Shown here: piece by piece, positions 1,969 to 6,357 of the stretch | Layout of the letters: every line of letters starts with the position of its first letter | How positions within the stretch are numbered: the first letter of the stretch is position 1 | Origin: Candidatus Zhuqueibacterota bacterium | GTDB taxonomy: Bacteria; SM23-31 | Assembly (NCBI GenBank): GCA_022562855.1 | Contig: JADFON010000115.1 | Coordinates: 1 to 6,357, forward strand | Length of the DNA: 6,357 bases | Direction: 5' to 3' | Translations under genes and position numbers: made by a program | The notes under the pieces: generated by a model | What the model was told of the DNA's origin: nothing | Seen by the model: only the letters and a program-made list of their open reading frames with translations | The model's database searches: none

Positions 1969-2355
1969 ATGTCATTAAAGTCTACCTCTGTTTCAAATCT
2001 GTCAAAAGTATTTATCGTATATTTTGCTTGTTTTATATTACTTGTAGAATTTCCTTTTCTACACGGGTTCCCCGGCAACGCAGACTCTGCAGTAAACGCA
2101 CAAAGCGGTGAAATTCATTCGCATGGTTCCGAAGAACCGCAAGAAAATGTCCGACATTTTCACAGCTTCAGTGAGTTATCTTACCAGATTTGCTTTTTGT
2201 GCGCATTAAATGCTTCACTTTTTACAAATTATCTTGACAGCAACAATACCAATTATAATAGCAGCTCTTCCATCCTGCAGTTTTCATGGGATGAGAGCCA
2301 TCAATCCACAAACCTGAAGCACCTTCCTTTGCTTCGGGCTCCCCCAGTTGTATAG
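1969..2355 (+). CDS. Small exported protein with HxH, HxH and CxxC motifs (DUF2946-like)
   Basis: The 128-residue product has a hydrophobic segment at residues 13-31 (VFIVYFACFILL...), probably an uncleaved anchor or signal peptide, so the rest should lie in the periplasm. That part has likely metal ligands: His32, H50-S-H52, H63-F-H65 and C75-F-L-C78, followed by a low-complexity Asn/Ser-rich stretch (about 87-100) and the ending PLLRAPPVV. Spaced His residues, a Cys pair and a terminal RAPP recall small DUF2946-type proteins found near metal genes; I hold this similarity loosely. Placed first in the cluster, it may bind metal in the periplasm or help the outer-membrane protein that follows 152 bases later. 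The start has no good Shine-Dalgarno site, but the signal-like N-terminus begins properly there. A nearby ATG at 1952 is out of frame. Confidence 0.65.
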   Translation: MSLKSTSVSNLSKVFIVYFACFILLVEFPFLHGFPGNADSAVNAQSGEIHSHGSEEPQENVRHFHSFSELSYQICFLCALNASLFTNYLDSNNTNYNSSSSILQFSWDESHQSTNLKHLPLLRAPPVV

Positions 2356-2464
2356 CTTCCAAATCATTTTTTCTATTTTATTAACCAAGATTTCTTTATA
2401 CATATATTTATTACCTTTTTCAGGTTGTAAATGCAGTATTGTTCTGGTTTTACCACCTGAGAAA

Positions 2465-2477
2465 TCATTTTAAATGA
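2465..2477. repeat. Perfect 13-base palindrome upstream of the outer-membrane protein gene
   Basis: TCATTT-T-AAATGA is a perfect 6-1-6 inverted repeat 30 bases before the ATG at 2508. It could be part of an operator or promoter, but it does not match a Zur box known to me and it is AT-rich, so chance is a fair explanation. Confidence 0.25.
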
Positions 2478-2507
2478 ATTTAAAAGGCAGTATATCAGGA
2501 GACAACA

Positions 2508-3848
2508 ATGAACCGGATACAGTTTTACATTGTCCTGTTCGGTCTGATTTTAATTTCAATTTTTCCATTATATGCACAAGACATACAAGAAAAACAGCAG
2601 GTGACTTCTGAAGAAGTACAAAAGCTTAGAGAAGATCTGCAAAAATTGATCGACCAACAGGTAGTTAAATTAGAAGAGCTTGAAAAGTTGATTTCTGAAA
2701 TTCAGGCAAAATTGGAAGGGCAGGAACAGGAAGACGAACTACAGGCATTGCTTGCCGCGATGGAACAGCTGGGTGCACAGGAGAAAGAAGTAGAGGAGGG
2801 TGTAGGGAAGAGATTCTTCAGTGGTCTCAGGCAAATGCAAATATTGAATCCCAATATCAGTTTATTAGGCGAATTCTATGGAGGAGTGAGTTCTTCCAGA
2901 AATGATCTGATTATTAATCCTGATGGGAACTTGTATGCAAACAGCGGATTTTTTATTCGTGGACTTGAGGTAAATATCGATTCCCCTCTTGACCCTTTTA
3001 CCAGAGGAAAATCGACTATATCTTTTTCAGGTGATGAGATAGAGGTGGAATTGGGTTTTTTGGAATGGATAAATCTTCCTTTGAGGTCAAATATCCGGGC
3101 TGGAAAAATCAGACCTGAATTCGGCTCTTTTAACCGGTATCACGCCCATGCTCTTCCGCAATTCGACAGACCCAGGGCGCTGGCGAACCTGTTTGGTTTG
3201 GAAAGCATGGCGGGTCTGGGTTTCGCGTCAAGTTTTTTGCTTCCACCGCTATTTGCGAGCGTAAATTCATTAGAAATAGGCGTCATAAAAGGAGGAAGCG
3301 GTTTCAGTTTTACTGATAAAGGAAAATACGGTTTAATTTATACAGCCGATCTCAAAAATTTTTACGACATCTCTCCAGATACCTATTTTGAATGGACAAT
3401 AAGCGGCGCTGTGGGTAAAAACGATCCCGATGAGAGATTTAATTCCTATATCGGAGACTTGGGTTTGACCTACAAATGGGCGCCGTCCGATCGTTTGCGG
3501 TACAGGACGGTTGAATGGAGAACCGAATTTATACTGAGCAAAAGGGAGTCCGCGACCGGTGATATAAATACATTTGGATTTTACTCATCTTTGCAAAATA
3601 GATTGAGCAGGAGATATGTTGTTAGTTCTCGTGTCGGTTATTCCGAACTTCCTTTTAACAGCGATTATCATGAATGGGACTTTACAACGACACTTGATTA
3701 TTGGCAAAGTGAGTTTGTTTTTTTGAGATTACAGTATAGCTATTTTGATAGAAACATATTTGTAGATAATGAAAAAATGCCAAATAACAGTTCATTTTTA
3801 ATTCACGTTGTGTGGGCGATGGGTCCGCATAAACATGAAACATATTAA
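2508..3848 (+). CDS. Coiled-coil plus beta-barrel outer-membrane protein, probable zinc/metal channel
   Basis: The 446-residue product starts with a clear signal peptide (residues 1-23, MNRIQFYIVLFG... ending LYA, cleaved before Gln24). Residues about 33-97 are a charged coiled coil (EEVQKLREDLQKLID and similar heptads), which in trimeric porins lies in the periplasm. From about 113 (LNPNISLLGEFYGG) to the end the sequence alternates polar and hydrophobic residues with many aromatics, as in a beta barrel. A striking segment is RYH212-A-H214-ALPQFDRP, resembling a conserved H-x-H...P...D-x-P motif I recall in putative outer-membrane proteins next to ZnuA genes. The C-terminus, WAMGPHKHETY, is also His-rich. 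The start is fixed by AGGAG seven bases before the ATG. The binding-protein gene follows after 38 bases, so the two are probably co-transcribed. Metal transport is inferred from context; a general porin role is possible. Confidence 0.75.
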   Translation: MNRIQFYIVLFGLILISIFPLYAQDIQEKQQVTSEEVQKLREDLQKLIDQQVVKLEELEKLISEIQAKLEGQEQEDELQALLAAMEQLGAQEKEVEEGVGKRFFSGLRQMQILNPNISLLGEFYGGVSSSRNDLIINPDGNLYANSGFFIRGLEVNIDSPLDPFTRGKSTISFSGDEIEVELGFLEWINLPLRSNIRAGKIRPEFGSFNRYHAHALPQFDRPRALANLFGLESMAGLGFASSFLLPPLFASVNSLEIGVIKGGSGFSFTDKGKYGLIYTADLKNFYDISPDTYFEWTISGAVGKNDPDERFNSYIGDLGLTYKWAPSDRLRYRTVEWRTEFILSKRESATGDINTFGFYSSLQNRLSRRYVVSSRVGYSELPFNSDYHEWDFTTTLDYWQSEFVFLRLQYSYFDRNIFVDNEKMPNNSSFLIHVVWAMGPHKHETY

Positions 3849-3886
3849 CAACGTTTATAAATGGTATTTTTAAAGGGAGATTTAAA

Positions 3887-4966
3887 ATGTCACACAGAGT
3901 AATAAAAAATCTGCTTGTAATAGTAGTAGGTGTAATGTTTTTGACCCAATATGCGCATAGTGTTTCAGGAAATTCCGGTAAATTAGTGACTGGTGAGCGA
4001 GATTACGCTGGTATCAAGATTGTTTGTTCTTTTTCACAATTTGCTTCTATTGCAGAGTTTATCGTTCAAGATAAAGGAGAAGTGCATTATATTTCTCAAG
4101 GAGATCAGGATCCGCATTTTGTACCACCTAAACCGAGTTTTGCGATGCTGCTTAACGGAGCCGATATGTGGGTAACCACGGGACTTGATCTTGAGATCTG
4201 GTCGACTACCCTTTTGGACAAGGCTCGGAACAGGCAAATATTGGATGGAGAAATCGGGTTTGTCTCGGCTTCGGATGGAGTACGCATGCTGCAAGTTACC
4301 GAGATAGTGTCCCGCACCGAAGGCGATGTACATCCAATGGGTAACCCGCATATCCATACCGGACCGCTAAACTGGAAAGTTATCGCGACGAATATCGCAA
4401 TAGGTTTGAACAAGATCGATCCAGAAAACGGCAATTTTTATAACCAACGTCGTGATGAATTTATAAATAAAGTCGATATTGCTTTATTCGGTGAGGAACT
4501 GGTCGATTTGCTTGGAGGCGCTGCATTGTCAAAACTTGTGGAAAACAATACGATCATGAAATTTCTCGAGGGGGAATATCAAGGCGAAAAACTGAAGACT
4601 AAACTTGGAGGCTGGCTTAAAAAAGCCTTGCCGTTCAGAGGCAAAAAAATAATGGCGTACCATAAGAGCTGGGCTTATTTTGCCGAAACGTTCGGGCTTG
4701 AAATTGTCGGGTATATCGAGCCGAAGCCGGGGATACCTCCTTCTGCAAGACATGTCCAGAATATGATAAAACTGATAGAAGACCAGAATATTTCAATAAT
4801 GATCGTCGCAAGTCACTTTGAACGAAATTCCCCGAGAAAAATCGAAGAAAAAACCGGAGTTAAAGCAATTTTTCTTCCTTTAGCTGTTCACGGTGTTCCG
4901 GAAGTGACCGACACGTTCAAAATGATCGATTACTGGATCGATGCGATAAATGCAAATATAAAATAA
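3887..4966 (+). CDS. ZnuA/TroA-family metal ABC transporter substrate-binding protein
   Basis: The 359-residue periplasmic protein should capture a divalent metal, most likely Zn2+, and deliver it to the ABC permease. Residues 5-25 form a signal peptide. The A-1 family signatures are present: QDPHF with His77, GNPHIH with His155 (His157 adjacent), and YHKSW with His259, the three usual histidine ligands. IEPKPGIPPSARH at 277-289 is the family's EP...PS motif. The fourth ligand is not obvious; the FLPLAVHGVPE segment (329-339) offers His335 or Glu339. Between about 200 and 252 there is an extra Gly/Lys-rich segment (FGEELVDLLGGAALSK... GGWLKKALPFRGKK) that marks a subclass, and there is no long His/Asp-rich loop as in E. 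coli ZnuA. AGGGAG lies about eight bases before the ATG. Binding of Mn2+ or Fe2+ cannot be excluded. Confidence 0.9.
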   Translation: MSHRVIKNLLVIVVGVMFLTQYAHSVSGNSGKLVTGERDYAGIKIVCSFSQFASIAEFIVQDKGEVHYISQGDQDPHFVPPKPSFAMLLNGADMWVTTGLDLEIWSTTLLDKARNRQILDGEIGFVSASDGVRMLQVTEIVSRTEGDVHPMGNPHIHTGPLNWKVIATNIAIGLNKIDPENGNFYNQRRDEFINKVDIALFGEELVDLLGGAALSKLVENNTIMKFLEGEYQGEKLKTKLGGWLKKALPFRGKKIMAYHKSWAYFAETFGLEIVGYIEPKPGIPPSARHVQNMIKLIEDQNISIMIVASHFERNSPRKIEEKTGVKAIFLPLAVHGVPEVTDTFKMIDYWIDAINANIK

Positions 4967-4970
4967 TCAT

Positions 4971-5129
4971 GTCTCGCAAAGACGCCAAGGCGCAATGGCA
5001 CGTAATTGCTGTTAAAGCCTAAAAACTTTGACACAGAAAGACACTGATTAGATATGATTACCACTGAATTTTTTAAGTAATGATTTTTTCAGCGTAAATC
5101 ACATGAAATCAGTGTAAATCAGTGTCAAA
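4971..5129. repeat. Palindromic intergenic repeat element (REP/MITE-like)
   Basis: The sequence between the binding-protein and permease genes has two repeat-like parts. The first begins GTCTCGCAAAGACGCC (4971), a motif I recall as common in dispersed intergenic repeats. The second is a long imperfect palindrome: GACACTGATT (5040-5049) is exactly complementary to AATCAGTGTC (5117-5126), an outer TTTGACAC (5027-5034) can pair with GTGTCAAA (5122-5129), and AAATCAGTGT is repeated in tandem on the right arm. It has no coding frame. The remaining bases to 5228 hold only AT-rich sequence. Its copy number in the genome is unknown. Confidence 0.6.
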
Positions 5130-5228
5130 AAAATAATATTGTTTATTCTACGCTGCCTGGTCTCTTTGGAAGATTGCGAAGTAATATTAGATTTTAATTT
5201 TTTACTAAGTCTGACCCTGTTTTAGTTA

Positions 5229-6050
5229 ATGCTTGAAACGTTTACATACCTTTTGCCTCCGTTTACGATTTGCCTCCTGATGGTGGGTATTCTAAGCTAC
5301 TTCGGGAATCACATTCTTGCCCGGGGCATCATTTTTATCGACATATCTCTTGCCCAGATTGCCGCGCTTGGTTCGATGATAGGTATACTTATCGGTTTTG
5401 GCGCCGAATCGACCGGGACGGCGATTTTTTCTTTTGCATTCGCAATCGTCATCGTTTCCTTGTTTCCTTTATTGAATTTTGAAAAAGAGGGTATACCTGA
5501 AGAAGCGATTATTGGATTCGCCTACGGGCTTTCGCTTGCTCTTGCGCTCATATTGGCGGAGTATATTCCGGGTGGGTCGAACTTTATCAAGAAAACGCTT
5601 ACCGGTAACATATTATGGGTGACCTGGAGCGAAATACTTGTGAGTTTTCTCTTGTTTTTCGGGGTGGGCATTGTTCATGTCTTTTTTGGAAAGAGATTCA
5701 TAAAAATGTCCACCGGTCAAATCGACGGATGGTCGAAATCCAAACAGATGACGATCAATCTATTGTTTTTTGTGACCTTTGCAATCGTGATAGTTAAAAC
5801 AGTGGCGATTGGAGGGATATTTGTAATATTCACTTTTTTGATCGCCCCGGCGTCTATTGCAGCATTTTTTGCGAATTCGTGGAAATGGAAAATCCTGATT
5901 TCATGGATCGCCGGTTTTGTCGGTTCAGTCCTTGGTATTATAGTCTCATATTACCTGGATATGCCCAATGGACCGGCGATAGTATGTACACTTGGTTTAC
6001 TGTTAATTGTTACCTGGATCTGTAAAAAGCTATTTTTTAGAAGTGCATAA
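5229..6050 (+). CDS. ABC-3 family metal permease (ZnuB/TroC-like)
   Basis: The 273-residue inner-membrane protein is made of roughly eight or nine hydrophobic helices and is of normal length for the family. Family landmarks include GILSYFGNHIL-x-RGIIFIDISLAQIAALG (residues 20-48), EEAIIGFAYGLSLAL (91-105), LTGNILWV (124-131) and the glycine-rich V-x-IGGIFVIFTFLIAPASIAA stretch in the second half. It would form the channel for the metal released by the binding protein. The start at 5229 follows an in-frame TAG two codons earlier and fits the family N-terminus, but no Shine-Dalgarno sequence is visible before it, which is odd. The gap of 262 bases to the binding-protein gene suggests a separate promoter or a disturbed operon. 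A second, related permease gene follows after 21 bases. Confidence 0.92.
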   Translation: MLETFTYLLPPFTICLLMVGILSYFGNHILARGIIFIDISLAQIAALGSMIGILIGFGAESTGTAIFSFAFAIVIVSLFPLLNFEKEGIPEEAIIGFAYGLSLALALILAEYIPGGSNFIKKTLTGNILWVTWSEILVSFLLFFGVGIVHVFFGKRFIKMSTGQIDGWSKSKQMTINLLFFVTFAIVIVKTVAIGGIFVIFTFLIAPASIAAFFANSWKWKILISWIAGFVGSVLGIIVSYYLDMPNGPAIVCTLGLLLIVTWICKKLFFRSA

Positions 6051-6071
6051 TAAGGAGCATGGAGAGGGACA

Positions 6072-6357
6072 TTGTCTATATTTGAATTTATGATCGCCCC
6101 TTTTGCGGCGTGTATGGTGCTGATCGGGATACTCGGCTATTTCGGTATACATGTTTTGAAACGTGAGATTATTTTCATAGATATTGCCATGGCGCAAATT
6201 GCCGCACTGGGCATGACTTTTGCCTTTTTGTTCAATATCGATTTTCACAGTAACCTGGCGTACTTGTTTTCGGTCGGTTTTACAACCATAGCGGCGTCGA
6301 TCTTCGCAGCAATAAAAGACAAAGACCTTCATGTCCCTTTGGAAGCTATTATAGGGT
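6072..6357 (+). CDS. Second ABC-3 family metal permease, N-terminal part (runs off right edge)
   Basis: Ninety-five codons are visible. The start is taken as TTG at 6072, because GGAG lies seven bases upstream and the next in-frame ATG (residue 7) has no Shine-Dalgarno site; an ATG at 6059 is in another frame and stops after eight codons. The product, beginning MSIFEFMIAPFAAC, aligns without gaps to the first permease: over 44 residues up to FIDIAMAQIAALG about 26 are identical. Shared blocks are GIL-x-YFG-x-H, IIFIDI and AQIAALG, and the later PLEAIIG corresponds to PEEAIIG. It is therefore a tandem paralog. Two different permeases side by side recall TroC/TroD or MntC/MntD systems, in which they form a heterodimer; two independent homodimers are also possible. 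The C-terminal half and any following ATPase gene lie beyond the window. Confidence 0.88.
   Translation, partial: MSIFEFMIAPFAACMVLIGILGYFGIHVLKREIIFIDIAMAQIAALGMTFAFLFNIDFHSNLAYLFSVGFTTIAASIFAAIKDKDLHVPLEAIIG

Follow-up and report, generated by a model that had tools for sequence, protein, structure and literature searches.

How might a bacterium bring zinc through two membranes without a TonB-dependent receptor in the outer membrane and without a dedicated ATPase at the inner one? The question is raised by a group of genes from Candidatus Zhuqueibacterota bacterium, found in a window of 6,357 bp (the whole stretch of DNA analysed) that makes up contig C121, part of a metagenome-assembled genome of 2.5 Mb at 80% completeness. 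The five open reading frames that the original prediction had placed in one orientation are all found, on the plus strand, and encode a small His/Cys protein, an outer-membrane barrel, a ZnuA-type binding protein, and two ABC-3-type permeases. On balance, these genes probably provide envelope-spanning uptake of a divalent metal, most likely zinc, by means of the porin, the small protein, ZnuA, and a permease pair that works without an ATPase; the identity of the metal, the direction of its movement, its hand-over from protein to protein, and the independence from ATP are what we infer from the evidence below. To our knowledge, little has been learned of how zinc passes the outer membrane independently of TonB, and the barrel, which represents a porin family without a name or a model that is present in about one fifth of the sampled genomes and travels with ZnuA, would offer a testable answer. 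Each part of the cluster has known relatives, in the porin fold, in ZnuA, and in the ABC-3 permeases; if the independence from ATP is true, the whole would represent a new kind of transporter. In the open-access literature, neither this cluster nor a zinc-specific porin nor an ABC-3 permease lacking its ATPase was found to be described, an absence that is weak evidence because only open-access papers were covered. Loci of this kind are today probably annotated as “metal ABC transporter” and “hypothetical protein,” which the finding would correct.

Linkage of the barrel with ZnuA

The proposal of a metal cluster that spans the envelope and includes an outer-membrane protein of its own, one that is not a TonB-dependent receptor, has stood up well to comparison across genomes: rather than lying mostly away from metal genes, the homologs of the barrel were found beside them. 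In all 80 named loci the barrel is followed by ZnuA and then, nearly always and as far as the contig permits, by one or two ABC-3 permeases, with order and orientation kept. Because these loci were sampled by likeness to the window, the fairer figure comes from a profile of 11 barrels, which gave 91 matches (split matches merged by hand) in 80 of 386 sampled genomes; 71 of these (78%) lie no more than 3 kb from a ZnuA gene recognized by PF01297, at a median gap of 137 bp, where the chance expectation, estimated from genome size, is well under 1%. Ten of the 20 matches with no ZnuA nearby are weak, and several others fall at contig ends. A search with a single barrel sequence found matches in 11 of 41 genomes, and a first single-sequence scan of genome contigs found none, whereas the alignment-based scan succeeded; searches of plasmids with two barrels as queries gave no match. 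The gene set is present in at least ten bacterial phyla, the named loci coming from KSB1, Bacteroidota, Gemmatimonadota, Krumholzibacteriota, Planctomycetota, Calditrichota, Poribacteria, Glassbacteria, Deltaproteobacteria, Omnitrophota, and others. In the window, the cluster is laid out as follows.

1969..2355, plus strand: small His/Cys protein, 128 amino acids, with an N-terminal hydrophobic segment, HSH, HFH, CFLC, and a C-terminal RAPPVV
2508..3848, plus strand: outer-membrane barrel, 446 amino acids, with an N-terminal helix and a predicted 16-strand porin domain
2595..2783, plus strand: coiled-coil-like N-terminal helix of the barrel, about residues 30-92 (helix 3-92 by DSSP on the model)
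3111..3212, plus strand: loop 3 of the barrel, residues 202-235, holding N209, H212, and H214 (codons of H212-H214 at 3141-3149)
3822..3845, plus strand: C-terminal tail of the barrel, GPHKHETY, after the last strand and periplasmic by topology
3887..4966, plus strand: ZnuA/TroA-type metal-binding protein, 359 amino acids, candidate ligands H77, H155, H259, and E278
4967..5228, no strand: spacer between znuA and permease 1, 262 bp, containing an inverted repeat of 42 nt as well as a dispersed repeat
5229..6050, plus strand: first ABC-3-type permease, of the ATPase-less clade, 273 amino acids (PF00950, E 5e-21)
5310..5342, plus strand: codons H28 to D38 of permease 1, the two residues conserved in the ATPase-less clade only
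5715..5735, plus strand: cytoplasmic loop 163-169 of permease 1, the usual coupling-helix site of ABC-3 permeases; modeled as coil and lacking the motif's A and G
6072..6357, plus strand: start of the second ABC-3-type permease, with a TTG start and 95 amino acids before the contig end

Variations on this arrangement occur among the relatives. One Gemmatimonadota chromosome (L109) carries a tandem pair of barrel-ZnuA-permease units. In L197 (4103-6409, genome G099) a permease and a barrel share one 769-residue frame, separated by a stretch that resembles a signal peptide, possibly a fusion or a case of translational read-through, and G237, from the same genus, has a 766-residue frame at its barrel. 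L187, L190, and L192 hold a small gene with a RAPP or HAPP tail together with a barrel and no ZnuA in view, two of them at contig ends; in this group, genome G229 has no PF01297 match at 1e-10. The more distant barrels of L188, L189, and L191 are solitary and lie away from metal genes. The barrel family may have other uses besides metal clusters.

From the outer membrane to the periplasm

The barrel was modeled with AlphaFold2 on an alignment of 63 homologs (mean pLDDT 88.5), giving an N-terminal helix that ends at residue 92, then a disordered linker and 16 antiparallel strands with a long loop 3. The best matches to this model in the PDB are OprP/OprO (Z 28.1), followed by general porins and DcaP (Z 23.4). 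That the protein lacks an N-terminal plug, as originally suggested, is borne out by the absence of a match to the Pfam plug domain (PF07715) and by the 16 strands of the model, and with no plug and 16 predicted strands rather than 22 the identity of the barrel as a TonB-dependent receptor is rejected. No Pfam or NCBIfam model covers the family in a scan of the 63 members. Two candidate assignments were rejected, Porin_O_P (PF07396), which reaches only one of the 63 (E 0.003) and does not match the window protein, and BBP2 (PF07642), which scores 19.7 bits against a gathering cut-off of 26.2. The phosphate and pyrophosphate porins OprP and OprO, along with DcaP, have the same 16-strand barrel and long loop 3 as the window protein, and a coiled coil is likewise known from DcaP; the window barrel nevertheless stands apart from them in its approximately 10% identity, its lack of Pfam membership, its conserved histidines in place of an arginine ladder, and its linkage to metal genes.

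Two sites in the barrel retain histidines across the family. The HAH motif noted at H212/H214 is present, within NRYHAHALP, and in the single-chain model both residues lie in loop 3, which is 34 residues long and joins strands 5 and 6. In 16-strand porins this loop folds into the pore and forms the usual constriction. Among the 63 homologs N209 and H212 are invariant and H214 is nearly so, and the pattern N..H.H is found in 84 of 86 loci. The second site follows the last strand, which ends at residue 438: G439, P440, H441, and Y446 are nearly invariant in the same homologs, and 81 of the 86 barrels have at least two histidines among the ten residues at their C-terminus, beyond the final strand. 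Overall identity of the homologs to the window protein is only 26-53%, yet the histidines of loop 3 and of the C-terminus are kept.

An outer-membrane step for zinc is also performed by TonB-dependent receptors such as ZnuD and the Caulobacter proteins ZnuK and ZnuL (PMC4176598), which have a plug and need TonB, unlike the window barrel with its 16 predicted strands and no plug. Six plug matches occur elsewhere in the genome from which the window comes, none within the cluster. Genomes G034, G038, and G388 contain the cluster and give no plug match at E 1e-6 genome-wide, so that a TonB-dependent receptor does not seem to be needed for the route in them. Outer-membrane porins have been reported in metal uptake before, including MnoP for manganese in Bradyrhizobium, RopAe for copper in Rhizobium, and MspD for zinc in Mycobacterium (PMC6011978, PMC13098993). 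These are comparable with the barrel in their reported role in metal uptake, and no report placing them in a ZnuA operon was found.

The binding protein of the window is assigned to PF01297 (E 1.2e-39). Its candidate ligands H77, H155, H259, and E278 are invariant in seven ZnuA relatives, and a histidine at the third ligand position is typical of zinc-type proteins. The nearest solved structures, 1pq4 and 2ov1, are zinc-uptake binding proteins. In the window ZnuA and about 50 relatives, an insert of about 50 residues with the pattern GG..L...GGW splits the Pfam match; this insert could be a docking element.

The small His/Cys protein is hardly conserved in sequence across loci except at its end. 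In 72 of 86 loci the barrel has upstream of it a His-rich or CxxC protein with a [RHY][AGSD]PP tail, whereas such a tail is found in 0.7% of the other His-containing open reading frames of similar size in the same loci. In an alignment of 40 R-tailed members the R and PP of the tail are invariant and two histidines nearly so, an invariance that arises partly by construction because these members were picked by that tail. Assignment to DUF2946 (PF11162) was rejected, as the window protein gives no match and only three of 40 relatives reach E 0.1. DUF2946 proteins, for example CC2720 and PA0433, are similarly small, with similar features, and similarly located in metal operons; genes of this family are found in a Caulobacter zinc-efflux operon (PMC4176598) and beside a Pseudomonas TonB receptor (PMC9431628).

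The inner-membrane step and the route as a whole

An ordinary importer composed of ZnuA and ABC-3 permeases had been assumed for this locus, and those components are indeed present; what probably does not hold is the ordinary character of the importer, as most of the clusters, including every one whose permeases are of the window's type, have no ATPase gene and the coupling helix is degenerate. Because the window contig ends early, the absence of an ATPase has been read from homologous loci, where 78 of the 80 named clusters lack one, the exceptions being the related L106 and L129. Further clusters with an ATPase are L018, L193, L194, L195, L197, L198, L199, and L212, whereas the ATPase beside L196 was set aside as the BtuD of a neighboring BtuFCD set, BtuC and BtuF adjoining it. 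An ATPase stands beside the barrel only where the permeases fall outside one particular clade. In unrooted trees built without the columns of the coupling loop, all permeases of the ATPase-less clusters lie on one side of a single branch and all ATPase-linked and canonical permeases on the opposite side, so that the trait changes once; support for this branch in the Shimodaira-Hasegawa-like approximate likelihood ratio test (SH-aLRT) is 100 with 81 rows, and bootstrap/SH-aLRT values are 100/99 with 55 rows.

Although the predicted fold of permease 1 is that of PsaBC (Z 27.4 over 264 aligned residues), the site at which an ABC-3 permease would normally engage its ATPase has changed. A motif resembling SFDxExAxxxG is typical of canonical and ATPase-linked permeases, with A in 17 of 17 and G in 16 of 17. 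Both coupling residues are kept in 16/17 ATPase-linked permeases and in 28/43 permeases of single-permease clusters, in contrast with 0/39 first permeases, the type found in the window, and 5/38 second permeases. In IsdF, the ATPase FhuC is no longer bound once the A and the G of A-x-x-x-G have both been replaced (PMC10147376). Window permease 1 lacks A-x-x-x-G, and its loop is predicted to be a coil of seven residues; the corresponding loop of permease 2 lies beyond the contig end. The transmembrane residues on either side are better conserved than those of the relatives, even while the coupling residues have been lost. The clade has also acquired a His (117/117) and an Asp (116/116) that are invariant among ungapped rows, corresponding to H28 and D38 of window permease 1 near the second transmembrane helix (numbered H29 and D39 in one alignment), where ATPase-linked sequences have F/Y/L and G/S/T/A, respectively; at neither position does the residue of the clade belong to the three commonest types in the 17 ATPase-linked permeases. 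The permease 2 fragment falls below the Pfam cut-off on its own (E 0.014) and is 49-53% identical to permeases of relatives. Elsewhere, the permeases of L102 (10246-11598), L113 (10097-11404), and L115 (10286-11665) have a C-terminal extension of about 150 residues with no Pfam match, and the single permeases of L103 (10460-11608) and L105 (10130-11428) have long His-rich insertions between transmembrane helices.

A partner ATPase could be encoded away from the cluster. TIGR03771 proved too unspecific a probe for ZnuC, and aligned sequences of true ZnuC proteins were used instead. From 24 genomes scanned with PF00950, sixteen near-complete or finished chromosomes were considered (G034, G038, G065, G070, G155, G162, G177, G195, G199, G209, G297, G299, G388, G389, G390, and G391); these have ABC-3 permeases solely in clusters of the present type and no recognized ZnuC. 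The best ZnuC-profile matches in G038, G155, G209, G297, G388, and G390 are BtuD or other types on inspection; those of G389 and G391 score 221-230 bits, in the BtuD range, with neighbors only partly resolved. The rest reach no more than about 153 bits, and in G065, G070, G162, G177, G195, and G299 no ATPase matches the profile above about 147 bits. Likewise, no orphan ZnuC was found among 25 two-permease genomes, in which each canonical-type ZnuC lies beside an ABC-3 permease of its own and the remaining profile matches lie beside FecCD-type permeases. With no orphan ZnuC, and none recognized in the sixteen genomes, a dedicated ATPase partner is therefore missing.

Because the ATPase gene is absent and the coupling helix degenerate, the inner-membrane step is probably not that of an ordinary ABC importer. 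The cluster shares the binding protein family and the permease fold of ZnuABC, AdcABC, and PsaABC but differs from them in having no ATPase gene, in loss of the coupling A and G, in its new His and Asp, in its two different permeases, and in the porin of its operon; as two defining features fail, the linked ATPase and the coupling motif, it is not classed with the ZnuABC importers. The solitary S-components BioY and BtuM, which are relatives of ABC-type importers, are reported to transport vitamins without an ATPase module (PMC11109136), but they have a different fold, no binding protein, and vitamins rather than metals as substrates. The broader proposition, that a clade of ABC-3-type permeases in at least ten phyla has abandoned ATP hydrolysis to become a metal carrier or channel that depends on a binding protein, receives its metal from a His-lined porin, and needs neither TonB nor an ATPase, is possible and is put forward tentatively. 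The clade would then represent a natural experiment on an ABC permease without its ATPase, with H28, D38, and the lost A-x-x-x-G as the candidate residues.

The route envisaged for uptake begins at the barrel, which would act as a metal-selective porin, ions passing the loop 3 constriction with its N-x-x-H-x-H and leaving past the periplasmic C-terminal His tail. The small His/Cys protein might buffer periplasmic metal or hand it on, and ZnuA would capture the metal through three His and one Glu before docking on the ABC-3-derived permease pair, from which the ion could reach the cytoplasm without a dedicated ATPase. The driving force might be the membrane potential together with cytoplasmic binding, or a coupled ion. 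Import of zinc is thermodynamically favorable, given the membrane potential and the very low free zinc of the cytoplasm, and for this reason an ATP-free step is plausible.

The main rival to such an ATP-free step, and one that comes close to an even chance, is an ordinary ATP-driven importer that borrows a ZnuC or BtuD-type ATPase encoded elsewhere, with the roles of the porin and the small protein unchanged. Sharing of this kind is known from Staphylococcus, where FhuC serves several permeases (PMC10147376), and candidates for it are at hand, as canonical ZnuC occurs in most two-permease genomes and BtuD in several single-permease genomes; the permease fold also remains PsaBC-like. Several further observations weigh against the route proposed here. 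Single-permease clusters often keep the coupling residues (28/43), and many two-permease genomes also encode a full ZnuABC, which could lend its ATPase, so that the two lines of evidence overlap imperfectly: genomes free of ZnuC are mostly of the single-permease type, often with the motif kept, and the types in which the motif is lost often encode ZnuABC separately. The linked ATPase of L199 is recognized at only about 3e-32, weaker than the cut-offs of the whole-genome scan, and a shared or very divergent partner is thus conceivable. In addition, a search upstream of 60 clusters for a Zur box, for which these phyla have no reference motif, gave no clearly enriched palindrome. Against a borrowed ATPase stand the rarity of the full motif (0/39 first and 5/38 second permeases), the six near-complete genomes that lack any ZnuC-profile match above about 147 bits, the want of an orphan ZnuC in the 25 genomes, and the clade's own invariant His and Asp.

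Other explanations concern the metal, the barrel, or the direction of transport. That the substrate is manganese, nickel, cobalt, copper, or a metal chelate instead of free zinc is unlikely; PF01297 does include both manganese and zinc types, small Cys/His proteins may prefer copper, and the lack of a recognizable Zur box would fit this view, but the three invariant histidines of ZnuA match the zinc-type ligand set as generally understood, and its closest solved relatives serve zinc uptake. It is improbable that the barrel is a structural or general coiled-coil porin with no relation to the metal genes that happen to adjoin it. Its fold does resemble that of general porins, and some homologs (L187-L192) have no adjoining ZnuA, but such a coincidence would leave unexplained the ZnuA genes beside 78% of profile matches and in all named loci, the His motifs kept at two sites, and the frame shared with a permease in one genus; moreover, half of the 20 matches lacking ZnuA are weak and several stand at contig ends. 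Very improbable is a function in efflux or sensing, with the permease releasing metal or serving as a receptor for loaded ZnuA. The missing ATPase would be consistent with it, and transporter-fold proteins of other families serve as sensors (PMC11109136), although by analogy only, whereas a binding protein and a dedicated porin fit uptake and no regulator gene was recognized within the cluster in the loci listed.

Other features of the window

Outside the cluster, the start of a FapA_N-domain protein (PF20250, E 7.7e-10) occupies positions 1-300 on the minus strand and is ended by the contig edge; no convincing gene was found between 300 and 1390. Genes for tRNA-Asp and tRNA-Val lie on the minus strand upstream of the cluster, and an Rfam scan of the window gave nothing beyond these two tRNAs. 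Within the cluster, the inverted repeat of the spacer at 4967-5228 is 76% matched over its 42 nt and is accompanied by a repeat of the CGCAAAG type that has two looser copies elsewhere in the genome. As the spacing at this position is only about 12 bp in the relative L013, a small mobile repeat has probably been inserted between znuA and the gene for permease 1.

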